A stretch of 24,185 nucleotides of DNA, from IMG/VR virus record IMGVR_UViG_3300006166_000411, positions 1 through 24,185 of that record, one strand, 5' to 3'. Each line of letters opens with the position of its first letter. Positions within the stretch are counted from its first letter, which is position 1. The notes below the pieces were generated by a model. That model saw only the letters and a list, made by a program, of their open reading frames with translations, searched no databases and had not been told where the DNA came from. This DNA is from a virus. This document shows positions 6,832 to 23,566 of the stretch, piece after piece. The position numbers and the translations under genes were made by a program.

Positions 6832-7651
6832 TTGGAAGCCACGACCAGCAGAAGGTAAGCATTTAGGCGGTGGCGTGGTTCTTTATGAGAGCGCCATAGA
6901 AGCCGACTGGGAGGCTCTCGCAGGTTTTGCAGAGGACTCCGCGGCAAAAGAACGTGAGGTCATGTATGAACCCGGAAAAGATCCTATTACTGGGGAAGAT
7001 GGATTTATAAATAGGAATGGTTATTTTTTTCCAGCCCATTCTGTGTATACGATGCCGCAACATTGTGCATATGTTCAAAGAGATGGATCTCCAGAATTTA
7101 AAAAGATACTTTTAAATATAGAAAAAAGAACTGATGAATGTCTTTTAGATTATTTGAAGTTATTTCCATTAGCGGGTAAATGTATTTGGTGGAAGATAAA
7201 AAGTCATATTTTGGTTTATCCAGAAGGTTCTTATTTGGGCATGCATTCAGATCAAAGTGTTGATTATAAATATGGTTTGCCTCATCCTCCTGATCAAATA
7301 GCAACACGCACAACAGTTTCACATTCAACTTTTTTCAATGACAGTGTTTCTACAGAGGAAGAATTAGATGGAACTAATTATGTGGGCGGATTGGTTCAGT
7401 TCGGATATTTAGAAATTGACTACAGACCCCGAAAGGGAGATATTATATTTTTTCCTTCTAACTATATTGCTGCCCATGGAGTCAGCAGAGTGGAGAAGGG
7501 CACACGGTACTCTCATATTGGATGGTATTGTCATGGAAGTCCTAATAAAGAGTTTCGTGAAGCAGTTGCAGACCCTGCGACTCAACCAGAACTGGCTAGA
7601 GAAGCAAGTAACGTGTATATGACAGAAGGGTATAATACGTATTATGAGTAA
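6815..7651 (+). CDS. 2OG-Fe(II) oxygenase (HSD-motif phage family), copy A
   Basis: 278 residues from GTG 6815, which follows AGAAGA and restores the N-terminus (TEGTNWKPRP) seen in its paralogue at 9115-10152 (PEGSNWPIPY). The frame runs open further upstream inside the preceding gene, but that part is a shadow. Motifs: WWKIKSHILVYPEGSYLGMH with His144-Ser-Asp146, NDSVSTEEELDGTNYVGG, KGDIIFFPSNY, distal His221 (AAHGVSRV) and Arg231 (GTRYSHIGW). The triad and 2OG anchor are complete. It shares a nearly identical 18-residue segment with the minus-strand copy. Confidence 0.88.
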   Translation: MTEGTNWKPRPAEGKHLGGGVVLYESAIEADWEALAGFAEDSAAKEREVMYEPGKDPITGEDGFINRNGYFFPAHSVYTMPQHCAYVQRDGSPEFKKILLNIEKRTDECLLDYLKLFPLAGKCIWWKIKSHILVYPEGSYLGMHSDQSVDYKYGLPHPPDQIATRTTVSHSTFFNDSVSTEEELDGTNYVGGLVQFGYLEIDYRPRKGDIIFFPSNYIAAHGVSRVEKGTRYSHIGWYCHGSPNKEFREAVADPATQPELAREASNVYMTEGYNTYYE

Positions 7652-8312
7652 TAATTTGAAAGTAGGCGTACTGCATCCCGGTTCTATGGGGTTGACCATT
7701 GCGAAAGCCTTCAATGCTAGTGGTTGTGAGATATTGTGCGCCACGGAAGGGCGCTCTGAAAGAACAGTTGATCGAGTTGAAACGGCAAACTATAAAGATG
7801 TTGGAACTATTGCAAACATGGTTGAACAGGCTGATGTAATCGCGTCCATTTGTGATGGTAGAGGTGTTTTTGCTGTGTATCAAAAAGATAGACCCGACGA
7901 GGAGGTTCAATTTCCAGTTGCGAGGGAAGTAATGGAAGCGGGGTTTAAGGGTATTTATCTTGATTGCAACACCATTATCCATGATCCAGTTGAAAGTCGT
8001 TGGGAAAAGGCTCTAGAAGAATACGTTAACAATAATGGGGCTTCTTATGTTTCTGCTGCGATTTATGGTTATCCACCCGCACAAGGTGAAAAGCATAACA
8101 AGTCACAGGATGTGCGCTTCTTGTTTGTATCTGGGGAAAAGGCTCAAACAATTGTAGACATATTAGATTCTAATGATTTTCCTTTAGTGGGTGAGATACC
8201 ACCAGAAGATGCTAAGGATTATAAGAGGCGGCTTATTGAAGAAAATGAACCACCTAATCCAGAATTATATTCACGAACAGATGAGGTATGGACCAATGCG
8301 CACTCCGATTAG
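7644..8312 (+). CDS. NAD(P)-binding oxidoreductase, 6PGDH/HIBADH-type N-terminal domain only
   Basis: 222 residues. The start GVLHPGSMGLTIAKAF is a Rossmann dinucleotide-binding loop (H-P-G-x-M-G) and is followed by CATEGRSERT, DVGTIANMVEQADVIASIC and GFKGIYLDCN. This is the layout of the beta-hydroxyacid dehydrogenase-like oxidoreductases common in Actinobacteria (HPGxMG ... ASEGRS ... DVGTL). Those bacterial proteins usually carry a C-terminal DUF1932 helical domain; here the protein ends after the Rossmann domain with a short acidic tail. It could be a host-derived gene that lost its substrate domain. Substrate unknown. It overlaps both flanking oxygenase genes (8 and 17 bp). Confidence 0.75.
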   Translation: MSNNLKVGVLHPGSMGLTIAKAFNASGCEILCATEGRSERTVDRVETANYKDVGTIANMVEQADVIASICDGRGVFAVYQKDRPDEEVQFPVAREVMEAGFKGIYLDCNTIIHDPVESRWEKALEEYVNNNGASYVSAAIYGYPPAQGEKHNKSQDVRFLFVSGEKAQTIVDILDSNDFPLVGEIPPEDAKDYKRRLIEENEPPNPELYSRTDEVWTNAHSD

Positions 8313-9135
8313 TCCCCACTTGCTTGATCCTGAAAAGTATGATTGCGGAGTAGTTGTTTTCCCTGATGCAGTACAACCAGAATTAGATCCAGATTGGGTA
8401 AAAGGTTGGGTTCATCGAAGACAAGAACAACGCGCTAGAACGTGGTATGACCGCCGAATAAAAACAGACATGCAACAGGATTATGTCATAGATGAAGATG
8501 GAAATTATATCAATCGTGGTGGTTACAAATTTACTCCTGAACAGTTCAAGCAGGCGCCCGGACGGTTGGTGGGATTGAAACATGCGGCAAATGCAGAAGA
8601 TCTTGAATTTATAAACAGAATGGATGCTGTAGTAGCAGAGTGCTTACGCGTGTATATGAGAATTTATCCTCAAGTTAGACCATCTATTTGGTGGAGAACA
8701 CCAAGTCATTGTTGCCTCTATGAAGAGGGTCAGGATCTTGGACCACATTCTGACCAGACATATGAGCGAGGTGACGATGAGTGGAACATGGGCATACACG
8801 CAGGACGCCACGATGCTCCAGTTACAGAATTTCCTGTTCATACGGTAGTGACATCCAGTCTTACACTCATTGATGAATGTGAAGGTGGTGAGTTGGTTTA
8901 CCCAAATGCAAATTTGACTAAGAAAATTTTACCGGGATCGGTTGTTCTTTATCCTTCTAGTTATATCGGAACGCATGGAGTAAATATGGTTACTTCTGGC
9001 ACGCGTGTTTCTTATCTACAGTTTTTTTGTCAGGGCACACCAGCGCAGGAGCATGCAGGATTTGTAGATGCATGGTTAGAGGGTCCGGCTAATAATCGAC
9101 AGTGGGTTTCTAACTCAGATAGTTTGCCCATCTAA
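8296..9135 (+). CDS. 2OG-Fe(II) oxygenase (HSD-motif phage family), copy B
   Basis: 279 residues from ATG 8296, with GAGG at 8283-8286; ATG 8281 is also possible. The frame extends further upstream only as a shadow of the dehydrogenase gene. Motifs: YDCGVVVFPDAV at the N-terminus (compare YGAGVVLFRNVL in the 9115 copy), IWWRTPSHCCLYEEGQDLGP with His151-Ser-Asp153, DECEGGELVYP, GSVVLYPSSY, distal His227 (GTHGVNMV) and Arg237 (GTRVSYLQFF). All metal and 2OG residues are present. It is more diverged than the 6815/9115 pair. Its 3' end overlaps the convergent minus-strand oxygenase by 21 bp, leaving no room for a terminator. Confidence 0.87.
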   Translation: MRTPISPHLLDPEKYDCGVVVFPDAVQPELDPDWVKGWVHRRQEQRARTWYDRRIKTDMQQDYVIDEDGNYINRGGYKFTPEQFKQAPGRLVGLKHAANAEDLEFINRMDAVVAECLRVYMRIYPQVRPSIWWRTPSHCCLYEEGQDLGPHSDQTYERGDDEWNMGIHAGRHDAPVTEFPVHTVVTSSLTLIDECEGGELVYPNANLTKKILPGSVVLYPSSYIGTHGVNMVTSGTRVSYLQFFCQGTPAQEHAGFVDAWLEGPANNRQWVSNSDSLPI

Positions 9136-10152
9136 TTCAGCGTATGGCATTAAAGGTCCAACGGGTTCTGATTCAGGGGGACGGTTGAGTGGGTTTATCT
9201 CTCCATTAGGTGAATGGTCTGGCCAATTTATCCACCTAGAGTATGGCGACTTAGAAAAACGCTCCCAATCTTGGTGAATCCATGGCAAGTATCCTGCCAT
9301 TCCCCAAGGCAGTCGTTCTGTTTCATATCCGGGTATCAGCACGGGTTTAGTTTCCGTGTGAACACCTTGACCGTAACATGACTGATAGACGTATCTGTAC
9401 CCTGCGGTTACTTCGGTTACTCCGTGTGTGCCTACGTAGTTGGCAGGGAAGAACAACATGTCACCTGTTTTTGGTTTGTAAGTAAGGTTGTTGAGGTAAG
9501 GGAACCACATTTCTCCACCCATAAAGTTGGTTCCGTCTAATTCTTCTTCAGTATCTACAGAGTCGTTGTAATAGACGAGGATGGACAGGGTTTGGTATAT
9601 TGCTTCCGGTCTGCCTGTCTCATACCTTTGCCCATCAATAGTCTTGTAACTGGTGTCATTGTCACTATGCATTCCTAGTGAACCGTTCGGAAAGTATTTA
9701 AGGACATTGCCTCGGAAGTGCCACCACAACGAGTTTAGTAAATGGGTATAAATATCTATGTACTTCATTAAACAGAGATACATCTGGTGTTCATTTTCGT
9801 AAAAGAACTCTTTAATGTCAGGAGGTGTATTTTCCATCACGGGTTTATTTTCACCGTAACCACCCAATCGGTAGGGATTGGAATAGTAGCGTTCTACTGG
9901 GAATTTTTCACCTGCCCAGTCTTCACACCACTGTTCTCCGTTTTCTTCTTTTAGAAAGATGCCCGGAGTTGAGTGTTCTGCATGTTCGTCTACATAACTA
10001 AGTAATGATTTTTGGTCTACGTCAAGTACATTCCGAAAAAGGACAACTCCTGCTCCATAATCAACTACATCTAAGTTGCCTATGTATTCACAGTCTGATT
10101 CAGCAACATAAGGTATCGGCCAGTTAGAACCTTCTGGAGTTGTGAGACTCAT
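9115..10152 (-). CDS. 2OG-Fe(II) oxygenase (HSD-motif phage family), copy C, minus strand
   Basis: 345 residues. Motifs: DYGAGVVLFRNVLD (31-44), LWWHFRGNVLKYFPNGSLGM with His162-Ser-Asp164, VYYNDSVDTEEELDGTNFMG, KTGDMLFFPANY, distal His243 (GTHGVTEV) and Arg253 (AGYRYVY). The Fe and 2OG sites are complete. Relative to copies A and B it has a C-terminal extension of ~80 residues that is Trp/Pro-rich (WGMAGYLPWIHQDW, WINWPDH) and has no recognised domain. It is the last gene of the minus-strand cluster, directly downstream of five unrecognised genes, with a 20-bp gap to the next one. Confidence 0.87.
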   Translation of the reverse strand: MSLTTPEGSNWPIPYVAESDCEYIGNLDVVDYGAGVVLFRNVLDVDQKSLLSYVDEHAEHSTPGIFLKEENGEQWCEDWAGEKFPVERYYSNPYRLGGYGENKPVMENTPPDIKEFFYENEHQMYLCLMKYIDIYTHLLNSLWWHFRGNVLKYFPNGSLGMHSDNDTSYKTIDGQRYETGRPEAIYQTLSILVYYNDSVDTEEELDGTNFMGGEMWFPYLNNLTYKPKTGDMLFFPANYVGTHGVTEVTAGYRYVYQSCYGQGVHTETKPVLIPGYETERLPWGMAGYLPWIHQDWERFSKSPYSRWINWPDHSPNGEINPLNRPPESEPVGPLMPYAELDGQTI

Positions 10153-10172: not shown

Positions 10173-10928
10173 CTAAGAATCACGCCTAATCAATGTTGTT
10201 CCATCATCTGTAGCAAGATGGAAAACCGTTAAGTTGCTTTGGGCTGCGATGTGTCGGTTGAACTTCGTGTAAGGATGCCAGAACATTTGACTATGGTTGC
10301 CGTAAAGTTGTCCGTATGATCCAGTATCTTCGATCTGCATAAGACCACCTACGGACAGCATGGCTAAATAGGCATCTAGTTTGTCTGTGTTGAGATCAAT
10401 TATTTCTTTCATTCGTATTTGTATGAAATCGTAAGTGCCTGCGCCAGTTCCAGCAAGAATACTTTGAGGTGTAACAGTTGAATACTGAGTGTCAGAATAA
10501 GCGGCTATTTCAGGAATAGTGAGAAAGAATTGTTCAAAGTTGTATAACCACTCATTGTTTACAACTGTCACATTTTTAGAACGGTCATTCATTTTTTCGA
10601 TTAACCATTCTGAAGGTTGTGCTAAAGCAAGTAGATAATTTGTTGCTTGAGCAAGTTCTTGGAAGAGCACGAAACGCAACTCGGATGCGAATACGTTTGC
10701 ATCCCAACCCGCAACTTTACTATTAAGCATTGTCCACCAGTGAAGTTCTATATCGTTACCAATGGCTACTGCGCGACGATCACTATTTAATGTTGTGTGA
10801 TGGGCAACAAGAGCATTTGTAAAATCTTCAGAATGAGAATTCCAATTGAGGTTGTGCGAACTGGAAGATGAGCCAACTTTGCTTAGTTCTTTAACAACCA
10901 TATTTGTTTCAAACCACGGATGAGCCAT
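10173..10928 (-). CDS. Hypothetical protein, possible phage structural protein
   Basis: 251 residues, no family recognised. It is Asn/Ser/Thr-rich with aromatic clusters (IELHWWTMLNSK, HSQMFWHPYTKFNRH) and mixed helix/strand character (ELRFVLFQELAQATNYLLAL). It has no signal peptide, membrane segment or catalytic motif. The ATG overlaps the upstream stop by one base (TAATG on the minus strand), so it is coupled to the small gene before it. Its position in a cluster of small proteins near tail and lysis genes makes a virion or assembly role plausible but unproven. Confidence 0.6.
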   Translation of the reverse strand: MAHPWFETNMVVKELSKVGSSSSSHNLNWNSHSEDFTNALVAHHTTLNSDRRAVAIGNDIELHWWTMLNSKVAGWDANVFASELRFVLFQELAQATNYLLALAQPSEWLIEKMNDRSKNVTVVNNEWLYNFEQFFLTIPEIAAYSDTQYSTVTPQSILAGTGAGTYDFIQIRMKEIIDLNTDKLDAYLAMLSVGGLMQIEDTGSYGQLYGNHSQMFWHPYTKFNRHIAAQSNLTVFHLATDDGTTLIRRDS

Positions 10929-11212
10929 TATGAAACTCCAATTGCTAAGTGTCGTTTATACCATAAGCGACGTGCGAGTAAGGCAAGTAGACGATGTTGG
11001 GTTGTAACATGAGCATCTGGAGCAAGGGTTGTAACTCCCTTGTTCGGTGTTGCAAGAGTATTGGTAGTTAATGTGTAATTGTCTTTGATCTTGTCAAGAA
11101 TATTATCGATAGAAAGAGTGTCGATATTAGCCCAGTCAAGTCCTAAGACAAATAGGATTTTTGCTAATTCTGATTCAATTTCACTAAGGTCATCTGCTGC
11201 TGAATAAGCCAT
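10928..11212 (-). CDS. Small hypothetical protein (helical)
   Basis: 94 residues, unrecognised. The N-terminal helix (ADDLSEIESELAKILFVLGLD) leads to a loop (WANIDTLSIDN) and a basic C-terminal helix (HRLLALLARRLWYKRH). The helix-GxD-loop-helix arrangement is reminiscent of the two related proteins at 11463 and 11675, though similarity is weak. It is coupled on both sides: one intervening base upstream and one overlapping base downstream. Confidence 0.6.
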   Translation of the reverse strand: MAYSAADDLSEIESELAKILFVLGLDWANIDTLSIDNILDKIKDNYTLTTNTLATPNKGVTTLAPDAHVTTQHRLLALLARRLWYKRHLAIGVS

Positions 11213-11213
11213 T

Positions 11214-11459
11214 TTATTCGGTTTCTTTTCTTGCTGTATGTTGATCTAAACTATCTGTTTCTAATCGGCTACAGAAAAAAACAGCGCCATCTGAAGCGTA
11301 TTCCCAACAAGCGAGTTCAGAATTCCATTTGATTTCTTCATTGTCTCTCCATAAACCGTGAGGACTTTCTCCTTCGGTTTGGGGAGCGGGTAAATCTTTT
11401 TTTGCTAAAAGATACTTACCAGCAGTTGTGGCTACATCTTGCTGCGTCGAGTCAGCCAT
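11214..11459 (-). CDS. Small hypothetical protein
   Basis: 81 residues, unrecognised. A polar N-terminus (TQQDVATTAGKYLLAKKDLP) precedes a Trp-rich segment, GLWRDNEEIKWNSELACWEY, and ASDGAVFFCSRL, which reads like a short beta-hairpin or baseplate/fibre-attachment-like module. No signal or membrane segment. Gaps to its neighbours are 1 and 3 bp, so it is clearly part of the minus-strand operon. Confidence 0.55.
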   Translation of the reverse strand: MADSTQQDVATTAGKYLLAKKDLPAPQTEGESPHGLWRDNEEIKWNSELACWEYASDGAVFFCSRLETDSLDQHTARKETE

Positions 11460-11462
11460 AAC

Positions 11463-11672
11463 TTATGCCAATGCGCCAAGTGCGGCTAGTTGCTTCCTTA
11501 GACACTCATGTGCAACATAAAATTCTGTGCCGCTTGTTTCTGGATTTGTGTAAGAAGCCGTAACGGTAGCGGGGTCTACGCCTAAAGCAAGACAAAGAAC
11601 TTGAGTCGAATACTCTAAATATTCTTTGGCTTCTGCTTTTGCCGCAGCCACCTGTGCATCAGTAAGCGCCAT
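11463..11672 (-). CDS. Small hypothetical protein, paralogue of 11675-11926
   Basis: 69 residues, Ala-rich and helical (DAQVAAAKAEAKEYLEYSTQVL), followed by LALGVDPATVTASYTNPET and a helix ending LRKQLAALGALA. The segment G-V-D-x-A-T-V-x-A-x-Y-x-x-P matches G-I-D-x-A-S-I-x-A-x-Y-x-x-P in the neighbouring protein, so the two are related by duplication. Function unknown. Confidence 0.6.
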   Translation of the reverse strand: MALTDAQVAAAKAEAKEYLEYSTQVLCLALGVDPATVTASYTNPETSGTEFYVAHECLRKQLAALGALA

Positions 11673-11674
11673 GA

Positions 11675-11926
11675 TTAAAGTGCTGCTTTCTTCGCTTTAG
11701 CATCTATGATTCGTGTGTTTAAACTTGCTATGCGACGTTCGTCATTGTAAATTGTTCCATCAGGAGAATCGGCAGGCTCTGCTGGTGCGGCATAATCTGC
11801 GGCAATTGAAGCCATATCAATTCCTCTACGGGTACACACTTCATAAAATTCTTGTTCTAAATCTTTAATAACACGTTCCAGAATGACAGATTTTGTCGCG
11901 CTAGGAATTTCGTATTCTAAATCCAT
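11675..11926 (-). CDS. Small hypothetical protein, first gene of minus-strand operon
   Basis: 83 residues from ATG at 11926, with AAGGG (11937-11933) six bases upstream; the frame could also start at 11965, but no good RBS is seen there. The protein has an N-terminal helix (KSVILERVIKDLEQEFYEVC), then RGIDMASIAADYAAPAEPAD and a C-terminal helix (ERRIASLNTRIIDAKAKKAA). It is related to the 11463 protein through the GxDxAxxxAxYxxP segment. Unknown role. It is expressed from the divergent intergenic region 11927-12111. Confidence 0.6.
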   Translation of the reverse strand: MDLEYEIPSATKSVILERVIKDLEQEFYEVCTRRGIDMASIAADYAAPAEPADSPDGTIYNDERRIASLNTRIIDAKAKKAAL

Positions 11927-12003
11927 TGCTGACCCTTCATTATTCTCGGTAATAGAGGCTATCACGGCATATTACTACGGATTTGAAGAAAGTCGAATGA
12001 CCT

Positions 12004-12009
12004 ATTATA
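12004..12009 (-). promoter_or_regulatory. Candidate -10 box TATAAT for the minus-strand operon
   Basis: The minus strand reads TATAAT, a perfect sigma70-type -10 hexamer, about 78 bases upstream of the ATG at 11926. The best -35-like hexamer, TGGACC, lies at a long spacing of 19, so the match is partial. The 11927-12111 gap between divergent operons is the logical place for such a promoter. Confidence 0.35.
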
Positions 12010-12069
12010 CAGATTTGAAAAAGTATAAGGTCCATCTTGGAGTATGTAAACATGAACTAAACTCTTTTT

Positions 12070-12083
12070 TAGCCTTCGGGCTA
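12070..12083 (+). promoter_or_regulatory. Short hairpin with TTCG tetraloop upstream of the holin
   Basis: TAGCC-TTCG-GGCTA forms a 5-bp stem with a very stable C(UUCG)G loop, preceded by a run of six T, 29 bases upstream of the holin ATG. No T-run follows it on either strand, so it is not a standard intrinsic terminator. It may affect leader folding or translation. Confidence 0.35.
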
Positions 12084-12111
12084 TTCATATTGGCGAGAGA
12101 TGAGGTTTTCA

Positions 12112-12318
12112 ATGGCCGAATACAAGGATCTTGCCGAACGTACAGTAGCGACTTTTATCCAAGCCGCAATTGGTGCCATGGGTACCAACAGCGTAATGGA
12201 TCTAGGCGTTGATAACTGGAAAATGATTGTAGCGGCAGGAGTTTCCGCAGCAGTTGCAGTTATCAAGGGCTGGGTTGCAAGTAAGTTCGGAGACCGTTCA
12301 CCATCTATGATGTCGTAA
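12112..12318 (+). CDS. Holin, r1t-like family
   Basis: 68 residues from ATG 12112, which has GAGG (12102-12105) at a 6-nt spacing; ATG 12100 is an in-frame alternative adding four residues. The pattern AERTVATFIQAAIGAMG ... DLGVDNWKMIVAAGVSAAVAVIKGWVAS fits small r1t-type holins: one amphipathic/hydrophobic helix near residues 8-24, a short loop and a second Ala/Val-rich membrane helix (~36-55). Holins permeabilise the cytoplasmic membrane and time lysis. It opens the plus-strand lysis/accessory block. r1t-type holins are typical of phages of Gram-positive hosts. Confidence 0.75.
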   Translation: MAEYKDLAERTVATFIQAAIGAMGTNSVMDLGVDNWKMIVAAGVSAAVAVIKGWVASKFGDRSPSMMS

Positions 12319-12381
12319 CAACGACTGAAAAGACCACAATTATAACTGTTTCTGTATAGTAGAAGCAAGTATCATAGTAGC

Positions 12382-12407
12382 GATACTAGGGACTTAAGTC
12401 CTATAAG
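12382..12407 (-). repeat. Right copy of 26-bp inverted repeat (palindromic core)
   Basis: Exact reverse complement of 3169-3194, with the GGACTTAAGTCC palindrome at 12390-12401. It lies 8 bases before the ATG at 12416 and overlaps that gene's AAGAGG ribosome binding site. Just outside, GTATC (12369-12373) pairs with GATAC (12382-12386, inside the repeat) to give a possible 5-bp stem; the left copy has no such partner. Confidence 0.85.
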
Positions 12408-12415
12408 AGGTTGCT

Positions 12416-12865
12416 ATGGATGACTTGTTTCGACAATATTTGAAAGGTGCTTCGGAAAATATTTCCAAAGTACTGGAAGAAACAGACGATACAGAAATAG
12501 ACGTAACAGAGGACGTAGGTAATTCTGTCGTAGGGGCCGTCAAGCACGCTTCCAGCCTGTTTGACCGCTTGAAAGACAACATTGCCTACGTTCTTGGTCT
12601 GCCTGCCGCTATATCAGGGGCTTTTGGATTTCTATGGCAATCGTCAGGGGAAGAGGCTGCTTTAAATCATAAAGTTGAACAATTAGAGCAGGCAGTATCA
12701 GAGTTGAAATCCGAGAACGATCTTCTTGGTGGTGGGACCAAAAACTTTTCGTTAGATATGAGTGGAGCACCGGGTGGATCGGTGACTGTAATCATTGTCG
12801 CTACCATATTGATAATTGTGATCGGACTTTTGTTCTGGTACCAGAGTAAACGTAAAAAACGGTAA
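12416..12865 (+). CDS. Membrane-anchored coiled-coil protein, possible lysis accessory
   Basis: 149 residues, no family recognised. An acidic N-terminus (EETDDTEIDVTEDV) is followed by a moderately hydrophobic segment at 57-74 (AYVLGLPAAISGAFGFLW), a heptad-like coiled coil at ~82-104 (ALNHKVEQLEQAVSELKSEN), a Gly/Ser linker, and a strong C-terminal transmembrane helix at 123-142 ending in basic KRKKR. The tail-anchored topology plus coiled coil, located right after a holin, would suit a spanin-like or lysis-regulatory membrane protein; this is inference. RBS AAGAGG is 5 bases from the ATG and lies partly within the 26-bp repeat, so a protein bound there could control its translation or transcription. 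Confidence 0.65.
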   Translation: MDDLFRQYLKGASENISKVLEETDDTEIDVTEDVGNSVVGAVKHASSLFDRLKDNIAYVLGLPAAISGAFGFLWQSSGEEAALNHKVEQLEQAVSELKSENDLLGGGTKNFSLDMSGAPGGSVTVIIVATILIIVIGLLFWYQSKRKKR

Positions 12866-12869
12866 CGTC

Positions 12870-15800
12870 ATGCGACGACTTGCCGCTGCACTTTTTATAG
12901 GTGCGTTATTTTCTTCTTCCTGTTCTTCGGGTAATTCAGATTCTCCTGTAGATACTGTTCCGGCGACTACGACAATCGCTCCAATAGTTCTTGAAGAAGT
13001 TCCTTTAGCGGATCACGCCATCCCTGAATATGTGGCATCAGACGATACGTTTTCTTTTGCAAACTTTGGTGGTGGTGAGGCGCCCGCAGACTTGACAGTC
13101 AACATGGCTCGTCGTCTGTATGGGGATTCTCAAGTTTGTTCAGATGTGTCAGATGGGAAATGTACGCCTTATCCTGTGATTCTTCAATTGATGTCACAAG
13201 CGAACAAGTCGATGCGTGGGGGCTTGTGTGAGGGTCTAGCAGTTTTAAGTTTGAGACTTGCAGGTGATGTCGAAACTCTGATGACATATCAAAACACCAA
13301 CACGGTATTTGATTTGGTTAAAGAAGATCCAGCACTTCTTTCGGAAATTGCTTATTGGTATGTAACACAATTCGCCGCGGAGGTTCAGGAAACAGCCTCT
13401 GCCTTTTTAGAAAAATCGCCTGCGGAATTAGCACAGGTGTTGATGTACGACTTTGCAGAAGCAGAGAAAGGTAATCCTCACACCGGCTTCACTATTGGTA
13501 TTTACTCTGAGCAAGGCGGTCACGCTGTAACTCCTTACAGAGTTGAAGAGATGCCTAGTGGTTATCGCATTTATATTTATGACTCTAATTGGCCGGGTGA
13601 AGAGCGTTGGATTGATGTTTCCAAAGAGGGAGCATGGATGTATGCCCTTGCCGCTACCAATCCGACAGAACAATCTGAAGCATGGTCTGGTGGAACTGGA
13701 ACCATGGAACTTACACCCATGCGTGCCCGTTCTGGTCCGTTCACTTGTAGTTTCTGTCCTCAGGAAGAAGGTGAAGAATCAGGAACGATGTTGACTGTTG
13801 CCGCTTCTGGCAGTAAGCAGATGTCGTTGAAAATTGAAACAGAATCTGGTGAGCGTCTTGGTTATTACGATGGCAAGTTCGTTAATGAAATAGAAGGCGC
13901 AACATATCGTTATTTGATTTCAGGACCAAGCACTGCTGATCCTGTATTAGTTTTTCTTCCACCCGGAGTTGAAGAGTTCAGCGCAGACGTTGAAGAAATA
14001 GAAGTTCCGCAAAAGAAAGAAGAAGCAAAATCTTCAAAGGATCGGATACAAGAACTTGTCGAAGAGAAGGTAGAGGAGGAAACTCAACAAAAGTTTTCGC
14101 TACTTGTTCTTAATGAGGAAAAATCAATTCAAATTGAAGCAGTAATAGTTGAAGAGGAAAAAGTTGAACGGTGGGAACAAGAAGTTGAAGAAGTTGAAGA
14201 AGTTGAAGAAGTTCAATCATTGCTGGCTTTCTCTGAAGAGGCAATCGAGATCGCCGAAATTGAGGAAGCAACTGTTGCAATTGCCGTGGACGCATTGGAA
14301 GTTGAAGTTGAACTTACTTCAGGTCAACAAATTGAAGTTGCCTTTGCGCCAGAGCCACCGATAGGGGAGCCTACACAACAGCAACCCGGTCAACCAGATG
14401 TGCCTGTAGTTCCCGTTCAAGATTTCTTGAACATTGCTATTGAAGATGAAACTGGTGAAGTATTAGCAGAAGTTGAAGTTGATCTTGCTGATTACAGAGT
14501 TGAAGAAGTTGAAGAACGTGCTCCTCCTGTGACACCTAATCCGGGTCAACCGGAAGAGGTGGTAGAGGAAGTTCCAGTAGCGCCGCTGAGTATCGAGATT
14601 TCCTACGATGAAGAAGTTGGGGAGATTATTCAAGAAGAGGCAGAAATAGAAGCGTGGGTTGCTTCTGATGCTGAATATTTTCAAGCCGTTGCTGAGGATC
14701 GCTTAGAAGAAGTTCTTGGTGAGTCATATGTTGAAGAGATTTTAGAAATAGAAGAAGAGTGGGAAACATTAGAAGTATTTGAAGAAGATGAAATTGATTT
14801 CACAGAAATTCTTTTAACTGTTGATGAGGACTACTGGGAAGATGAACAGTGGGAAGAAATTGATTATGACGATGAATGGTTTGAAGAAGAACGAGAGTTA
14901 ATGGATGAACTCTTCGGAGAGGAAATTAATGTAGAGGAACTCTTTGAAGAAGTTGAAGAGTTCGTAGATGAAGTTGAAGAAGAGCGAACTTTATTCTTTG
15001 CTGAACATGAAGAATTTGAAGAGGATTATTTTTGGGAGGAATATGAGGAAGAATTTTATGAAGATGATTTTGCTTTCCAAGAGTATGACCCTGAACTAGA
15101 AGAACAACATATTCTTGAAGAATTTGGTCTTGAAGAATGGAATGAAGATCTTTTAGGACCATCACCTACTGAAACTGCTGATTGGACTGGTGAAGATTGG
15201 GAAGCCTATGACGAAGAAATGGATGCCATTTGGGAAGAGCAAATGGAAGATCCAGAAACATGGGAAGAAGAATTACTAGAAGAATTTGGAGTTGAAGAAT
15301 GGAATCCAGACTGGGGTCCATCGCCCACAGAGTCGGCTGAATGGACAGAGGATGATTGGGATGAATATGATCGCCAGTGGGCAGTCGATGAAGAGGCTCG
15401 CATTCTCGAAGAAGAAGGTTTCGATGAATGGCCAGAAGACTGGGGTCCTTCGCCCAGTGAAACTGCCTTGTGGGATGAAAGTGACTGGCAAGCCTATGAC
15501 GAAGAACAGCATGCTCTTTGGGAGGAAGAAGAATTTGAAGAAGAGTGGGAAGAAGAAGAGTGGGAAGAAGAGTGGGAAGAAGAAGAATTTTTTGAAGAAG
15601 AGTGGGAAGAGGAAGAATGGGAAGAAGAAAATCTTTCTGAAGAAGAACTTGATTGGATAGAAGAAACTGAAAGTTGGACAGAAGAAGATTGGGAAAACTG
15701 GGACAACTTCATGGGAGTTGAAGAAGAGTTTCCTGAAGAAGAATGGGAAGAATGGACGGCTGAGGATGAAGAAGCCCTAGTTCTAGAAGAACTCGGTCTT

Positions 15801-17291
15801 GAGGAATGGCCGGAAGATTGGGGTCCATCACCCACTGAAAGTTGGGACTGGACAGAAGAAGATTGGGTGGCTTACGACGAGGAACAAGAAGCACTATGGG
15901 AAGAAGAAACAGACCTCGACTGGATTTTTGAAATAGATGAAGAGGATTGGGAAGATGAATGGGGTCCGCATCCCACTACGACAATCGATTGGACAGAGGA
16001 AGACTGGCTTGCTTATGAGGATGAGATGGGGTACCCCGAAGAATGGGAAGAGTGGGAAGAAGATGACCAGTTTGAAGGTTGGACAGAAGATGATTGGGAT
16101 GATTGGACAGGAGAAGATGAAGAGGCGTGGGTTTTAGAACAAGAGGGGTTGGAGGAGTGGCCAGAGGATTGGGGTCCAAGCCCAACTGAATCATGGGATT
16201 GGGTTGAGGAAGATTGGTTGGCTTATGAAGATGAGATGGGGTATGAGGAAGAAGAATGGGAGGAGTATCCTGAAGAAGAGTGGGAGAACCCCTATGAAGA
16301 TTGCATAGGCACAGCCGCTTGCGAAAACGCACCGGGAGGTTTTGATACTTGGGCGCAATGGGAATCTGCTAATAACCCTAATTATGTAGCCCCTGAAGTT
16401 GGTGATCCTGATTATGTGCCGCCTCCACCACCGCCACCAGTTTATGTTCCTGTCTATTGGGCTTATTCTAATGATTTAGTTACTAGCAGGATTAATACCG
16501 CCAGTGAAGCGACTGTCACGACAGTGTTGGCTAGAGGTACAGATGGACATTGGTATGAAACGCACACGACTGAAACGACTGTCACTACCACGACTTACAC
16601 TACGAACGGAACAGAACAATATGGTTGCGTAGATAATGCTTGCGCCATATCAGGCACTACATGGGATGATGAAACAAGTTCACAGTCTGTAGCGGTAACA
16701 ACTGCCACAGAAGTTGTACCTGCTTCTTGTTCGCAAGGTGGTTGGACTGGCTTAGGAGACTGGTGCATAGTTGATTCGAGTAGTCGAAACGATTACGACT
16801 ATGTTGCTTTCTCGGTTCCTACTGCCGCTGAAGAAAACGAAGCCTGCGATTGCACAGATGGCGATGGGCTTATGGACATTCGTATAGACGCTGAAAGCAA
16901 CTTAACCAGAGCGCAGTTCGGCTCTAATAACGAACACGCTGACCCTTACATCTACCTGAACCACGACACAGACTCAGATGATGGTGACCACTCAGGAGAT
17001 ACATCAGAAATAACAGTTGGCAATCAGATTCTAGCAAACGATGATGGTGGTAGAGATTGTGGTAACACTTGCACTAATCCGCCTAGCACCGCAACTGATC
17101 CTGACGAGACACCGAACGTAACGCTTGCCAATGGTGATCCTGTTATAGAAAATGTTTCGGATATGTGGGATTCTCGCATTGAGAGAGAACTATCTGCGGG
17201 AGACTATGTAGTAAGGGGTTCGGTTTACAACAACGCTAATAGCGGATGGTATCGACTAACTATTCGTGATGCGGATGTGACTTACCCGTAA
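12870..17291 (+). CDS. Giant Glu/Trp-rich secreted protein with papain-like cysteine peptidase and PPC-like domains
   Basis: 1473 residues. Residues 1-18 look like a signal peptide with a degenerate lipobox (SSS-Cys18), then a Thr/Pro linker. Residues ~80-290 carry a papain-fold peptidase pattern: GGLCEGLAVLSL (Cys120), GGHAVTPYRV (His218) and IYIYDSNWPG (Asp238/Asn240), in the correct C-H-D/N order. Residues ~376-1143 are extraordinarily rich in Glu and Trp, with six imperfect copies of GPSPTES-x-W-x-x-x-DW-x-AYDEE. A poly-Pro segment (~1184), a Thr-rich stretch and a PPC-like beta domain (~1340-1470: DPYIYL, ILANDDGG, RIERELSAGDYVVRG, GWYRLTI) follow. It occupies the slot where an endolysin might be expected, downstream of the holin. 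Lysis, virion or cell-surface roles are all possible; none is proven. Confidence 0.75.
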   Translation: MRRLAAALFIGALFSSSCSSGNSDSPVDTVPATTTIAPIVLEEVPLADHAIPEYVASDDTFSFANFGGGEAPADLTVNMARRLYGDSQVCSDVSDGKCTPYPVILQLMSQANKSMRGGLCEGLAVLSLRLAGDVETLMTYQNTNTVFDLVKEDPALLSEIAYWYVTQFAAEVQETASAFLEKSPAELAQVLMYDFAEAEKGNPHTGFTIGIYSEQGGHAVTPYRVEEMPSGYRIYIYDSNWPGEERWIDVSKEGAWMYALAATNPTEQSEAWSGGTGTMELTPMRARSGPFTCSFCPQEEGEESGTMLTVAASGSKQMSLKIETESGERLGYYDGKFVNEIEGATYRYLISGPSTADPVLVFLPPGVEEFSADVEEIEVPQKKEEAKSSKDRIQELVEEKVEEETQQKFSLLVLNEEKSIQIEAVIVEEEKVERWEQEVEEVEEVEEVQSLLAFSEEAIEIAEIEEATVAIAVDALEVEVELTSGQQIEVAFAPEPPIGEPTQQQPGQPDVPVVPVQDFLNIAIEDETGEVLAEVEVDLADYRVEEVEERAPPVTPNPGQPEEVVEEVPVAPLSIEISYDEEVGEIIQEEAEIEAWVASDAEYFQAVAEDRLEEVLGESYVEEILEIEEEWETLEVFEEDEIDFTEILLTVDEDYWEDEQWEEIDYDDEWFEEERELMDELFGEEINVEELFEEVEEFVDEVEEERTLFFAEHEEFEEDYFWEEYEEEFYEDDFAFQEYDPELEEQHILEEFGLEEWNEDLLGPSPTETADWTGEDWEAYDEEMDAIWEEQMEDPETWEEELLEEFGVEEWNPDWGPSPTESAEWTEDDWDEYDRQWAVDEEARILEEEGFDEWPEDWGPSPSETALWDESDWQAYDEEQHALWEEEEFEEEWEEEEWEEEWEEEEFFEEEWEEEEWEEENLSEEELDWIEETESWTEEDWENWDNFMGVEEEFPEEEWEEWTAEDEEALVLEELGLEEWPEDWGPSPTESWDWTEEDWVAYDEEQEALWEEETDLDWIFEIDEEDWEDEWGPHPTTTIDWTEEDWLAYEDEMGYPEEWEEWEEDDQFEGWTEDDWDDWTGEDEEAWVLEQEGLEEWPEDWGPSPTESWDWVEEDWLAYEDEMGYEEEEWEEYPEEEWENPYEDCIGTAACENAPGGFDTWAQWESANNPNYVAPEVGDPDYVPPPPPPPVYVPVYWAYSNDLVTSRINTASEATVTTVLARGTDGHWYETHTTETTVTTTTYTTNGTEQYGCVDNACAISGTTWDDETSSQSVAVTTATEVVPASCSQGGWTGLGDWCIVDSSSRNDYDYVAFSVPTAAEENEACDCTDGDGLMDIRIDAESNLTRAQFGSNNEHADPYIYLNHDTDSDDGDHSGDTSEITVGNQILANDDGGRDCGNTCTNPPSTATDPDETPNVTLANGDPVIENVSDMWDSRIERELSAGDYVVRGSVYNNANSGWYRLTIRDADVTYP
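14159..16299 (+). repeat. GAA/TGG-rich low-complexity tract with six GPSPTES...DW repeats
   Basis: Long runs of GAA/GAG and TGG codons encode (E)n(W/F) patterns such as EEEWEEEEWEEEWEEEE. Six better-defined units, starting GPSPTE, GPSPTE, GPSPSE, GPSPTE, GPHPTT and GPSPTE, lie between about 15156 and 16235; each is followed by a DW-x-x-x-DW-x-x-Y motif. The unit spacing varies, so it is a diverged protein repeat, not a recent DNA tandem array. Confidence 0.85.
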
Positions 17292-17304: not shown

Positions 17305-17601
17305 ATGCAACATAAAGATGTAAAAATAAAAGTTTGGATTGATCAAGATTTATGTACAGGTGATGGCTTATGCGAAGAAATTTGCCCATCGGTTTTTGGA
17401 ATGAATCCTAATGATGGGTTGGCATATGTCAAAGAAGCGGAATGGAAAACTATCAATGGGCCAACTGGCTCTTCTGGGGATGAACCCGTTTATAAGATGG
17501 CAGACGGACTGGCAACGGTTCCCGGAGAAGACGTCCAAGCGGCAATTGAAGCGGCAGAAGAATGTCCGGGGGAATGTATCTTCATCGAGGTAATGGATTA
17601 G
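17305..17601 (+). CDS. Ferredoxin with CxxDxxC...CP cluster motif
   Basis: 98 residues. Cluster ligands read Cys17-x2-Asp20-x2-Cys23, then Cys27-Pro, with the distal Cys87 in AAEECPGECIFIE. Asp replaces the second Cys of the classical CxxCxxC motif, as in Pyrococcus furiosus ferredoxin, so it could hold a [3Fe-4S] or an Asp-ligated [4Fe-4S] cluster. A ~25-residue insert (WKTINGPTGSSGDEPVYKMA) precedes the C-terminal half. Single-cluster ferredoxins with this C-terminus are widespread in Actinobacteria, often as electron donors to P450s or other oxygenases. No reductase or P450 is seen here, so host partners are likely. 13 bp downstream of the giant gene. Confidence 0.85.
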   Translation: MQHKDVKIKVWIDQDLCTGDGLCEEICPSVFGMNPNDGLAYVKEAEWKTINGPTGSSGDEPVYKMADGLATVPGEDVQAAIEAAEECPGECIFIEVMD

Positions 17602-17618: not shown

Positions 17619-17981
17619 ATGAGTCTGTATCAGTATCGCGCCAAAGTTACAAAAGTAGTAGATGGTGACACTATTGATGTGGAGTTGGATTTAGGTTTTG
17701 ACATTACTTATAAGGCGCGTGTTCGTTTTGTAGGGATTAACACACCAGAATCTCGTACAAGAGACTTAGAGGAAAAGGCTTTAGGTCTTGCGGCGAAAGA
17801 TTTTGTGGGTCGTTGGCTCGTAGAAGAGGCAGGCATGCATCCAATAATTGAAACCAGTTTGGACGCGAAGGGAAAGTTTGGTCGAGTTCTTGGGCGGATT
17901 GTAAATGATGAGGGTGTTTGTTTGAATGATGTGCTGATCCAAGAAGGTCATGCAACCGAGTACCACGGAGGTAAACGGTAA
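17619..17981 (+). CDS. Thermonuclease (staphylococcal nuclease-like, SNase)
   Basis: 120 residues, one minimal SNase OB-fold domain. Motifs: KVVDGDTIDV (Asp15, Asp17, Ca-binding), RVRFVGINTPE (Arg36, Glu44), and KFGRVLGRI (Arg89), equivalent to Arg35, Glu43 and Arg87 of the staphylococcal enzyme. The second Ca-ligand Asp (Asp40) is Asn41 here, a substitution common in GINTPE-type homologues. No signal peptide, so it acts in the infected cell or virion; host nucleic acid degradation is a reasonable role. It lies 17 bp after the ferredoxin, in the same operon. Confidence 0.88.
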   Translation: MSLYQYRAKVTKVVDGDTIDVELDLGFDITYKARVRFVGINTPESRTRDLEEKALGLAAKDFVGRWLVEEAGMHPIIETSLDAKGKFGRVLGRIVNDEGVCLNDVLIQEGHATEYHGGKR

Positions 17982-19805: not shown

Positions 19806-20308
19806 GGCTTGCTCATAATATTGGAGATGAACTGCATTCCAATTACCACACCCGTGAACAAATCCTTGCCTGTGATGAACCCATAGGTTTTGATGGTGTT
19901 TATTACAATGTGTATAAGAATCAAGATGTTTTGCGTAAAAAGTCTGGAATCATGTTTGTTACAGGAAACTATTTGGGCGGTGATAATAGTTTTGATTTAG
20001 AAAACGTGCCCAAATTAGAAAAGTTCTGCACCCTTGCAGAAGTTAAAGAATTGTGTAATAGGTATGACTTTGAAATTGGATGGCACACTTGGTCACATAG
20101 AAACCTGTGCGAGTTGTCAGAAAAAGAAATCATACAAGAAATAACTGCGCCGTTTGAAACGAGATACCTACGGTACCCGCATGGAGAGTATTGCGACAAA
20201 GTTGTAAATTGTGTTAAGAGTGCAGGGTATGAAAAGGCTTTCGCTGTTACACAAGGCGTGGTGGATGACCGATATAGACTTTTAAGTAATTATGTTGATT
20301 GGTCTTAA
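19802..20308 (+). CDS. Polysaccharide deacetylase (NodB-like)
   Basis: 168 residues from ATG 19802, chosen because it forms an ATGA overlap with the upstream stop; ATG 19793 is in frame. NodB motifs: IGFDG (Asp31) in place of the usual TFDDG, followed by VLRKKSGIMFVTGNYLGG; HTWSH (His95, His99) as metal-binding motif 2; and RYPHG (Arg124-Pro126-Gly128) as motif 3. One Asp of the DD pair is missing, so catalysis may be altered or lost. The family removes N- or O-acetyl groups from chitin, peptidoglycan or other sugars. It overlaps the next gene by 17 bp. Confidence 0.8.
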   Translation: MRLAHNIGDELHSNYHTREQILACDEPIGFDGVYYNVYKNQDVLRKKSGIMFVTGNYLGGDNSFDLENVPKLEKFCTLAEVKELCNRYDFEIGWHTWSHRNLCELSEKEIIQEITAPFETRYLRYPHGEYCDKVVNCVKSAGYEKAFAVTQGVVDDRYRLLSNYVDWS

Positions 20309-21020
20309 ACGAGCGTATGAAGATGACGGTGTTGTTGTCATACCTTCAGTTTTTTCTGAAGAAGAATGTGATCGCATAAAAGAAGAGGCTTATCGCGTCA
20401 CAGATGAACAAATAAAAGAAACTGGATACAAGCATGTTCCCAGCGAGCAAGCATACAACAAGAAGTCATTAATATTTTTTCCAGCATTAGCCAATGAATA
20501 TTTGAATTCGATCAGAATAGATGAACGAATGCAAGACATTGTGCGTAATCTTCTTGGCAATAATGTTAGACAGATCAATAATCAAATCTATTTTAGAGAG
20601 TCAGGTGATCTGGACACTTTCGCATGGCACAGGGATACGATTTTTAGAGAAAGTCATCTCTTTTCTTCGGGCGTTGAAACTGATTATTTGCAAACCATCA
20701 TTGCTGTAGATGACATTACAGAAGATAACGGTGCAGTTGAATTCATTACAGGATCACATTTTTGGGATTCATTCACCAATCCAAGAAATCTCCGAATATT
20801 TGAAAGGGGCATTTATCAAGGGACAAAATACACAGCAAAAAAAGGTGACATGATGATTTGGTCTGTGAAAATTGTTCACGGAAGCGAAGCCAACACTTCG
20901 GGAGATCCTCGAATGACATATATGAATGGATTTTGTCGGACTAAATCTGTAAGCAGTTATCCAGATTATTTATTAAATGGAAATATTGTAAAGAATATTG
21001 ATCCAAGTCTTATCCCTTGA
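20292..21020 (+). CDS. Phytanoyl-CoA dioxygenase (PhyH) family 2OG oxygenase
   Basis: 242 residues. Motifs: EDDGVVVIPSVFSEEECDRI (PhyH N-terminus), RESGDLDTFAWHRD with His113 and Asp115, TIIAVDDITEDNGAVEFITG (~135-154, typical PhyH), KKGDMMIWSVKIVHGS with distal His196, and Arg207 (DPRMTYMNGF). All Fe and 2-oxoglutarate residues are present. PhyH proteins hydroxylate lipids, ectoine, halogenated or small metabolites. It is coupled to the methyltransferase/deacetylase pair, so a sugar or lipid substrate is conceivable. Its 3' end overlaps the convergent gene by 11 bp. Confidence 0.88.
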   Translation: MLIGLKRAYEDDGVVVIPSVFSEEECDRIKEEAYRVTDEQIKETGYKHVPSEQAYNKKSLIFFPALANEYLNSIRIDERMQDIVRNLLGNNVRQINNQIYFRESGDLDTFAWHRDTIFRESHLFSSGVETDYLQTIIAVDDITEDNGAVEFITGSHFWDSFTNPRNLRIFERGIYQGTKYTAKKGDMMIWSVKIVHGSEANTSGDPRMTYMNGFCRTKSVSSYPDYLLNGNIVKNIDPSLIP

Positions 21021-22032
21021 ACCCATGCGCTCCGTTCATGGACATGGAAAGGGGAGAAATTTTGATCAGTTCTGCTTTTAGATGAAACTGTTCAATGTTT
21101 TCTGCTCCTGAATAGGAGAACGCACTTCGCAGTCCTTTGCAAATGTCAAGGATAATAGGTTCCGTAGGACCTTTGCATTCAACCATGCCTGATGCACCTT
21201 CTTCATAGTGAGATCCTGCTTTTTTAGATGCCATTCCTCTGAACTCTTTATAGGCTTTCCCTTTTTCTAGTACGACATCGCCGGGAGCCTCATCTGTTCC
21301 TGCCAGCATTCCACCCACCATTACGGCATCGGCTCCCAAAGCAAGAGCCTTAGCAATGTCTCCTGCTGTTTTCATTCCTCCATCTGCAATGGCACTCATG
21401 CCATATTTGTCTGCCGCTTCTGCACATTCTGTAATAGCGTTTACTTGAGGAACGCCGACACCAGTTTTGATTCGTGTCGTACATGCCGAACCCGGACCTA
21501 TGCCAATTTTTACTGAGTGCGCACCTGCATTCCACATTCTTTCTACTGCCCCTGCTGTAGCGACGTTTCCACCTACCACACATACGGATGAGTTAGATTT
21601 TTCAACCATAGAACGAATCGTATGGATTTTATCTAAAGCGTGAGTTGAATCGCCATGTGCTATATCTAAAACAATTGCATCGACTCCATTATCGGCGTAA
21701 GCCTGTATCTCATCTGCAAGACAATGGATACCAACAGCGACAGCAACTTGTTTACCCTTTCTGCCCAGAAGACGGATTTCTTTTAATCGTTGACCGGGAG
21801 TTAAGGCACGATGAAGCACTCCCATGCCTCCGAGATCAGCCATGACGTTGGCCATTTTACCACCACACACTGTGTCCATGTTGGCGGCGAGAATAGGGAT
21901 GTCTAACTCTAAATTATTTGAAAGCCTTGTAACCAGACTGACATCATCCCTGCTACGAATTTCGGAATATTGTGGGCGAATAAGAACATCGTTGAATGAC
22001 AAATGCTCTTGAGTAATTAGTTGTGCAACCAC
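21010..22032 (-). CDS. GMP reductase-like enzyme (IMPDH/GMPR family, no CBS domains)
   Basis: 340 residues, starting at GTG; E. coli GuaC is 347. Motifs: [41 protein letters not shown], the catalytic loop [20 protein letters not shown] with Cys184, [20 protein letters not shown], and [19 protein letters not shown] and GGMLAG are GMP reductase-like. CBS domains and the long IMPDH flap with the Arg-Tyr pair are absent, which favours GMP reductase (GMP + NADPH to IMP + ammonia). [15 protein letters not shown] and the GVLHR segment are more IMPDH-like, so a GuaB-related function cannot be excluded. It would remodel purine pools during infection. Confidence 0.8.
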
Positions 22033-22075
22033 ATGCCATATTCTGTCACAAGGGCAAGTCTGTTACGCGCACCCT

Positions 22076-22690
22076 CTATGTGCAGTTGATGAAGTTTTCC
22101 CTGTGCCTTCTGTAGAAAAGGAGAGGTTCTTCTAGATGAACACGTTTTGCTCCTAGTTCTAACATTCGATCCCAAAGCACATGATCTTCTTCTGTGTTTA
22201 CTCCACCATCTCGTTTGGCGTATCCAGCCGATTGCCCATAAGAAGTGCGATACAGCATTGATCCGTGATGTCCATTCCAACGCCAATAGACATCACCGTT
22301 TCTCATTACATCTGGAAGTTGAGCGTCGCGATGATTCATTTTGAATTCCCCTGTGACCATGACTTCATAGGTAACAATGTCAGCCTCAGGTGTTTCGTTC
22401 ATTACTGTTTCAATAGCATCAGATCGCAACCAATTGTCTGCACCTAAAAACATTGTGTATTCAGTTGTCACTCGCATGAGCATGTCTTGAAAATTATCTA
22501 CAGTACCCAAGTTACCCTCACGGAAAATGTAGGTAACTTCTGGATAAATCTCAGGCAGATGCTTACAATCTCCGATGCCGTCATCTACAAAAAGAATCTG
22601 ATCAGGAGGGCGTGTTTGAGAGAGCAGGCTCTCTATGCAGTGTGCCGCTAGATGACCATAGTGATAGGAAGCAACTACTACGGTAAGCAC
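22076..22690 (-). CDS. Glycosyltransferase family 2
   Basis: 204 residues, a compact GT-A fold. VVVASYHYGHLAAHCIESLL (4-23), ILFVDDGIGD (nucleotide-binding Asp pair), FREGNLGTVDNF and FLGADNWLRSDA (ADN in place of the usual DxD, binding metal and UDP-sugar), then EEDHVLWDRMLELGAKRVHL (the ED acceptor motif) and LLFYRRHREN. Short C-terminus but all core motifs are in order. The adjacent PhyH gene starts one base from its own start codon, on the same strand. Likely decorates a host or virion glycan or DNA base; the acceptor is unknown. Confidence 0.85.
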   Translation of the reverse strand: MLTVVVASYHYGHLAAHCIESLLSQTRPPDQILFVDDGIGDCKHLPEIYPEVTYIFREGNLGTVDNFQDMLMRVTTEYTMFLGADNWLRSDAIETVMNETPEADIVTYEVMVTGEFKMNHRDAQLPDVMRNGDVYWRWNGHHGSMLYRTSYGQSAGYAKRDGGVNTEEDHVLWDRMLELGAKRVHLEEPLLFYRRHRENFINCT

Positions 22691-23566
22691 TTAGACATAC
22701 ATTTGGTTGATTGGAAAATAGTAACCGTTTAATTCATAGTGGTGTTTCCATCCTAAACGGGAAAGAGGAGCAGGCATATCAGGTCGGTGGTTGATGCCTG
22801 AAAAGTGTGCGATGCATGAACGGCGGTCTAAGTCAGGATTTTTAGGGGTACTACCACGATGCATGAGGCGACCATGCCATAAAAGAACATCACCTTTTTT
22901 CGCAATGAAATCTTCTACTTCTAATTCTGAATCGGTAATTAGTTGTTCAAAAAGTGGAGTGAGTATTTCTTCTGAATGTTTTGGCCAGTTAGGATCTTCT
23001 GCGGCGTTTGGTCCTAAAGCGGCGAGCATTTTTTCATGTGTTATTACTGGAAATTTATGTGACCCACGAATGAATTGAAATGGACCTGAATCAGGATGAA
23101 TGTCATCTAGGGCTATCCAAATAGCCATATAGAAATCACGATTTGTGTCTGGATTTAGATAGCCGTCTTGGTGCCAGTTGCGTTGAGTTGAATTCCATCC
23201 TGTCAAGTTGAGATGAACTCCTAGCGGTTCACCAATAAGGTCAGTCATTATTTCATTGAGTGGAGCGTAGGAAAGCATGTCTCCTAATGAAGGGACATAC
23301 ATATAAGGAACGTCGAAAGGCCAACCCATAGGTCGGTTTACTCTGGTGCGATTTTCATGTATCCATGCTTTTTTGTAATCTTCTATAAGTTCTTCTGGCA
23401 TGAATTCTGGAAGGATAACAAGACCATCATTTTGCCATTGGGTTTGTATTTCTGTTTCTGGTTTGTTTGCTTCGTTGTCCAACCAAGGTATCTGAGTTAA
23501 GTCATCCCACTCTTGAATTAAGTTAGCATTATAGAAACCTTTGAAATTATCTAGGTTTATAGTCAT
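22691..23566 (-). CDS. Phytanoyl-CoA dioxygenase (PhyH) family 2OG oxygenase, second copy
   Basis: 291 residues; the RBS AAGGA lies 5 bases before the ATG at 23566. Motifs: WQNDGLVILPEFMPEELIED (44-63), NSTQRNWHQDGYLNPDTN with His132 and Asp134, MAIWIALDDIHPDSGPFQFI (147-166), KKGDVLLWHGRLMHRG with distal His236, and an Arg at 248-249 (DRRSCIAHF). It has the complete catalytic set and is closer to bacterial phytanoyl/ectoine-type PhyH than the copy at 20292. It heads a minus-strand operon with a glycosyltransferase and a GMP-reductase-like gene. Confidence 0.88.
   Translation of the reverse strand: MTINLDNFKGFYNANLIQEWDDLTQIPWLDNEANKPETEIQTQWQNDGLVILPEFMPEELIEDYKKAWIHENRTRVNRPMGWPFDVPYMYVPSLGDMLSYAPLNEIMTDLIGEPLGVHLNLTGWNSTQRNWHQDGYLNPDTNRDFYMAIWIALDDIHPDSGPFQFIRGSHKFPVITHEKMLAALGPNAAEDPNWPKHSEEILTPLFEQLITDSELEVEDFIAKKGDVLLWHGRLMHRGSTPKNPDLDRRSCIAHFSGINHRPDMPAPLSRLGWKHHYELNGYYFPINQMYV

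Follow-up and report, generated by a model that had tools for sequence, protein, structure and literature searches.

A Giant Lipoprotein with a Predicted Papain-Like Domain and a Glu/Trp-Rich Arm, Paired with a Membrane Protein, in a Candidate Lysis Cassette of Marine Phages

Introduction

Phages of actinobacteria must cross more than peptidoglycan, and they carry extra lysis proteins, that is, LysB and LysZ, the latter having been proposed as spanin-like (PMC9671378, PMC13056207); these two are the known candidates for the last step. LysZ is a protein of 177 aa with one membrane segment, and LysB is a mycolyl-arabinogalactan esterase. In the two-component spanins (Rz/Rz1 type) of Gram-negative phages, a membrane protein with an N-terminal transmembrane segment (N-in, C-out) is followed by a lipoprotein, and their genes are adjacent or overlapping within the lysis cassette.

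The present work deals with the window, i.e., the whole virus record IMGVR_UViG_3300006166_000411 (24,185 bases), which embeds a gene for a giant lipoprotein. In our judgement, it is an even call whether this lipoprotein represents the larger member of an envelope module of two genes located in the lysis cassette of a phage of marine actinobacteria. The features considered are the following (coordinates in the window, strand, description, evidence):

12112-12318, plus strand: r1t-type holin, 68 aa; Pfam PF16945, 30.2 bits (curated cut-off 26.9), E 4.6e-7; homologues at the same place in relatives
12416-12865, plus strand: membrane partner, 149 aa; alignment A8, hydropathy
12870-17291, plus strand: giant lipoprotein, 1473 aa; open frame, relatives in more than 80 viral contigs
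12870-12923, plus strand: signal peptide and candidate lipidation Cys18 (SSSC); Cys conserved in place
13044-13940, plus strand: predicted papain-like N-terminal domain, residues 59-357; alignment A5 (54 rows), hhalign with a Rhodococcus homologue, Foldseek (low-confidence model)
13227-13229, plus strand: Cys120, proposed nucleophile (GGLCEG); invariant in 58/58, kept in the Rhodococcus and Lachnospiraceae homologues
13521-13523, plus strand: His218 (GGHAVTPY); invariant in 58/58, kept in the homologues
13581-13583, plus strand: Asp238 (IYDSNWP); invariant in 58/58, kept in the homologues
13941-14648, plus strand: predicted beta-rich region with Pro/Glu linkers, residues 358-593; conserved blocks in alignment A2, strands predicted at low confidence
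14649-16298, plus strand: acidic Trp-rich region with six GPxP repeats, residues 594-1143, of variable length among relatives; composition, frame control, repeats, pN/pS
16299-16739, plus strand: poly-Pro and Thr-rich stalk, residues 1144-1290; sequence, with 18.6% Thr just before the C domain
16740-17288, plus strand: C-terminal beta-type domain, residues 1291-1473, with a conserved Cys and the motifs DPYIYL and DDDGG; alignment A9 (30 sequences), weakly PPC-like

Reading Frame and Layout of the Lipoprotein

The open reading frame is uninterrupted from the ATG at 12870 to the stop codon ending at 17291, and its product carries, in this order, a signal with the candidate lipidation Cys, the N domain, an acidic Trp-rich middle, a poly-Pro tract, a Thr-rich stretch, and the C-terminal beta-type domain. 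In the comparison with four relatives, in which synonymous sites were near saturation, synonymous change was in excess in all the segments of the protein (pN/pS between 0.04 and 0.48). The N and C domains had the lowest ratios, roughly 0.1-0.2 and 0.04-0.1, respectively, against 0.2-0.3 for the acidic part. This, in turn, implies that the frame is real and selected, and the translated frame of 1473 residues claimed by the sequence-only reading is therefore borne out. The same reading had spoken of a single protein, which holds for the frame; the protein is, however, half of an invariable two-gene unit with the membrane protein encoded upstream.

An origin of the gene by chance or from purine-rich DNA was ruled out by the frame control and by conservation, and a singleton or an assembly artefact by the many separate contigs encoding relatives. 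Sequence searches of Pfam, PHROGs, NCBIfam and PDB yielded nothing useful for the giant lipoprotein, and no description of such a protein was found in the literature.

The candidate lipidation Cys is present in all the family loci compared, and an acceptable lipobox was found at the same position in 51 of the 52 non-redundant relatives. The suggestion of a lipoprotein-like signal thus agrees with the family, whereas the lipobox of the window's own copy is degenerate.

The N-Terminal Domain

Besides Cys120, His218 and Asp238, which lie where the initial inspection had placed them, the residues G118, E121, G122, G217 and N240 are invariant in all 58 aligned family members. The order Cys, His, Asp, expected of clan CA papain-like peptidases, is shared by all the phage members and by two sets of distant homologues: the Rhodococcus plasmid protein WP_241065042, which matches the N domain with a tblastn E of 3e-5 and a profile-comparison probability of 98.9, and surface-type proteins of Lachnospiraceae, with 31-34% identity.

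The structure model of the domain has a mean pLDDT of 59.8, with parts of the His/Asp sheet region at 78-89; in this low-confidence model, a helix starts right after Cys120, and strands lie at His218 and just before Asp238. Probing with the model in Foldseek retrieved IdeS/Mac-1 as the best match (E 2.6e-3, prob 0.99), followed by phytochelatin synthase, staphopain and other papain-like enzymes; none of the PDB matches passed E 0.001, and the sequence of the domain gave no match to PDB chains or Pfam peptidase families. Comparison with viral structures yielded nothing informative. According to these sequence and model data, the N domain likely has a papain-like fold, from which we infer that it may act as a peptidase. 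The papain-like site proposed beforehand is thus well supported by conservation and by the distant homologues, and weakly by the fold comparison; the affinity with papain-like families appeared in the latter and not at the level of sequence matches.

The homologues also bear on the idea that the papain-like domain, as a peptidase or a transpeptidase, takes the protein's own acidic repeats, or partner proteins, as substrates and thereby matures a surface polymer. Such auto-processing or cross-linking would fit the Lachnospiraceae homologues, in which the domain is likewise followed by acidic Trp repeats (WTEEDE...) within one large surface-type protein. We consider it very unlikely, however, given that the Rhodococcus homologue is devoid of acidic Trp repeats, that the likeness of the phage and Lachnospiraceae repeats may be convergent, and that no cleavage site was identified.

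The Lachnospiraceae MAG proteins (L036, 758-5320; L121, 1-3231; L037) combine leucine-rich repeats, the Cys/His/Asp domain, the acidic Trp array and a long cationic (RMRY)n array; the pairing of acidic Trp repeats with poly-RMRY is striking.

The Acidic Arm, the Stalk and the C-Terminal Domain

The dominance of Glu and Trp that had first drawn attention to this protein is correct, with 45% D+E, 10% W, 0.9% K+R and a net charge of -253 over residues 594-1161. Read in the two remaining forward frames, this stretch has 16 and 77 stops and gives basic products, so that the acidic composition belongs to the lipoprotein frame and not to purine-rich DNA in general; furthermore, the codons AAA, AAG, AGA and AGG are wholly absent from the acidic-region frame. 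The six repeats were also found, counted as GPxP motifs at residues 763, 816, 859, 985, 1032 (GPHPTTT) and 1102. In all the measured members of the family, the acidic region is kept (39-48% D+E, 3-10% W, at most 3% K+R) over about 120-680 residues, and a Thr-rich stretch follows it.

This composition, and the fact that the acidic character persists despite the change in length, might suggest that the protein, as a Trp-rich polyanion, mainly binds cationic peptides, divalent metals or wall polymers, with the N domain as a pseudo-enzyme or scaffold. That Cys, His, Asp and the motifs around them do not vary, even in the distant homologues, is unexpected for a pure scaffold, and we regard this explanation as improbable. 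As for the decoy for cationic peptides or metals and the adhesive polymer of the sequence-only reading, no evidence was found for them; the composition would permit either.

The poly-Pro tract that had been described is present within residues 1144-1290. A C-terminal beta-type domain exists as well, whereas its designation as PPC-like is weak: the PPC domain PF04151 had no match in the window copy, and the best match, in one of 30 relatives, had an E of 0.023, below the curated cut-off. Moreover, one relative (L032) resembles the window far more in its stalk and C domain (pS 0.46) than in its N domain (pS 0.70); from these sequences, the C-terminal part appears to be mosaic, having been exchanged between lineages.

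Organization of the Genes around the Lipoprotein

The membrane partner comprises a hydrophobic segment (56-74), a probable coiled coil (75-104), a transmembrane segment (123-141) and a basic tail (KRKKR). Its gene lies directly upstream of the lipoprotein gene in 52/52 non-redundant loci, a linkage that represents conservation of the pair and not 52 separate events, since the relatives are not independent samples. The gap between the two genes ranges from -30 to 10 nt, the genes usually overlapping, and the other neighbours change.

The holin gene of the window, shorter than the ORF-length cut of the first listing, is located about 100 nt before the partner gene. Only 17 of the 52 loci have a recognisable r1t holin upstream, and its gene immediately precedes that of the partner in 14. 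A VanY/PG-binding endolysin was found 0.3-3 kb from the pair in L023, L092, L094, L097, L100, L101, L103 and L104, among others, and endolysin (VanY-like and/or PG-binding) and holin precede the pair in L091, L092, L096, L101 and L103-L106. The gene order is endolysin, PG-binding protein, holin, partner, lipoprotein in L101, and endolysin, holin, partner, lipoprotein in L096 and L092; in L100 and L023, the endolysin is 0.3-1 kb downstream, and the upstream tail-module genes, the pair and the endolysin are on one strand. What speaks against the lysis reading is the limited number of loci with a recognisable holin and the endolysin, which was recognised neither in the window nor in the examined flanks of many relatives.

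The main rival explanation, superinfection exclusion or receptor masking, has to be weighed against this context. A lipid-anchored, wall-spanning and highly negative brush with an adhesive tip would block or degrade the receptor that phages use on an infected cell, preventing both the adsorption of later phages and the rebinding of progeny to debris. Phage exclusion lipoproteins exist, and the architecture of the protein, the tail-fibre genes that precede the pair in several relatives, the variable length of the acidic part and the mosaic C-terminal part are in its favour; on the other hand, the exclusion lipoproteins known so far are small, and the closest recurrent association of the pair is with holin and endolysin. 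We therefore consider this explanation rather doubtful.

The window harbors other genes of interest. Those for a ferredoxin (17305-17601) and a staphylococcal-nuclease-like protein (17619-17981) follow the lipoprotein gene, as they do in many relatives. The regions 6644-10152 and 20292-23566 include several 2OG-Fe(II) or PhyH-type oxygenase genes (8191-9135, 9115-10152 and 22691-23566 according to Pfam, the others being similar-looking). A 129-aa protein (1065-1454), in which an array of HFPPHFPP repeats comes after a PASTA domain (E 1.5e-5), is encoded beside the tail-fibre gene, and an IMP dehydrogenase/GMP reductase-like gene (21010-22032, minus strand) shares about 40% identity with guaB-type genes of other phage records.

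Distribution of the Family and Host Signals

Relatives of the same layout, with an N-domain identity of 59-100%, are encoded by more than 80 environmental (marine) viral contigs, and a second, more distant clade shares the layout; the complete members have about 990-1730 aa. Contractile-tail genes occur in relatives. A search for a T4-type capsid gave no match, its controls being silent as well. The lipoprotein had no relative among about 50,000 phage records, nor did the partner have one in cultured phage records. An origin as a host gene was rejected, in that the genomes yielded only the distant homologues and one 3.3-kb MAG contig (L034). This contig, assigned to a Phycisphaerae MAG, has a close copy (84%) of the gene and is probably a phage contig within the bin.

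WhiB genes are typical of actinobacteria and their phages, and WhiB-type genes were identified (Pfam match, motif search) in over a dozen of the relatives' loci. In a 114-kb relative, whose genome also has a tail sheath, the terminase is nearest to those of Gordonia phages (41-43%), and the ferredoxin adjoining the lipoprotein gene matches only Streptomyces in the plasmid set. Taken together, these sequence signals suggest that the host is probably a marine actinobacterium. The 114-kb relative (L115) also encodes, at 10519-15750, a 1743-aa protein that matches a head maturation protease over its first 176 residues.

Proposed Role

A role in the envelope at the lysis stage is the best explanation because of the position of the gene, its invariable pairing and the lipoprotein nature of its product. 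Among the three functions offered by the sequence-only reading, the "unusual lysis protein" is the one backed by the context, that is, by the r1t holin in the window and the endolysin and holin cassettes in relatives. Speaking against it, gene position is no proof, in that exclusion and host-takeover genes can also adjoin lysis genes, and 1000-1700 aa is big and costly for a lysis factor.

We can depict the following scenario for a lysis-stage role. The lipoprotein would be exported late, lipidated and anchored next to its partner on the external side of the cytoplasmic membrane. The papain-like domain would then be located near the membrane, and the polyanionic Glu/Trp arm, continued by the Thr-rich stalk, would span the cell wall, putting the C-terminal domain at the surface. 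After the action of holin and endolysin, the lipoprotein might help to break through the outer envelope or strip it off, through cleavage of proteins attached to the wall or the surface or through physical disturbance of the wall; it would represent a third lysis component, with a role comparable to that of spanins, LysB or LysZ. A more tentative extension is that such a protease-bearing, wall-spanning lipoprotein and its membrane partner constitute the spanin-like third lysis component of phages of monoderm actinobacteria, and hence a new lysis-protein family that combines a papain-like domain not described before with a polyanionic Glu/Trp arm.

The giant lipoprotein, being conserved and invariably paired in these marine phage contigs, with holin and endolysin adjoining in several, is a new candidate for the last envelope step. 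Its N domain represents an undescribed, cysteine-peptidase-like family common to phage, actinobacterial and gut-bacterial proteins.

Comparison with Known Systems

In the lysis reading, the pair would occupy the same cassette position as the spanin pairs of Gram-negative phages, and it shares with the two-component spanins the succession of a probable coiled-coil membrane protein and a lipoprotein, encoded by adjacent or overlapping genes. Unlike in spanins, however, the lipoprotein is far larger, the strongest hydrophobic segment of the partner is C-terminal and followed by the basic tail, and the host appears to be actinobacterial, for which an outer membrane is not expected. The partner has a weak match to an Rz-like spanin in PHROG (E 0.003) and no other sequence relation to spanins. 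Membership in the spanins was ruled out by the topology of the partner, and the pair was not filed as a spanin, given this misfit and the outer membrane not being expected.

LysZ and LysB are, similarly, additional envelope-directed lysis proteins from phages of Gram-positive actinobacteria (PMC13056207, PMC9671378); neither has the domain layout of the giant lipoprotein. With the papain-like cysteine peptidases, the nearest fold match being IdeS/Mac-1 of family C66, the N domain shares the Cys-His-Asp order; its low-confidence model also places the Cys where a predicted helix begins, and the His and Asp on or beside strands. It differs from them in its lack of sequence matches, its fold match (E 2.6e-3) coming from that model. 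Lastly, the Rhodococcus protein and the BspA-type surface proteins of Lachnospiraceae, both uncharacterised, possess a homologous N domain with the same Cys/His/Asp motifs; the former differs from the phage lipoprotein in having no acidic Trp arm, and the latter in their leucine-rich repeats and (RMRY)n array.
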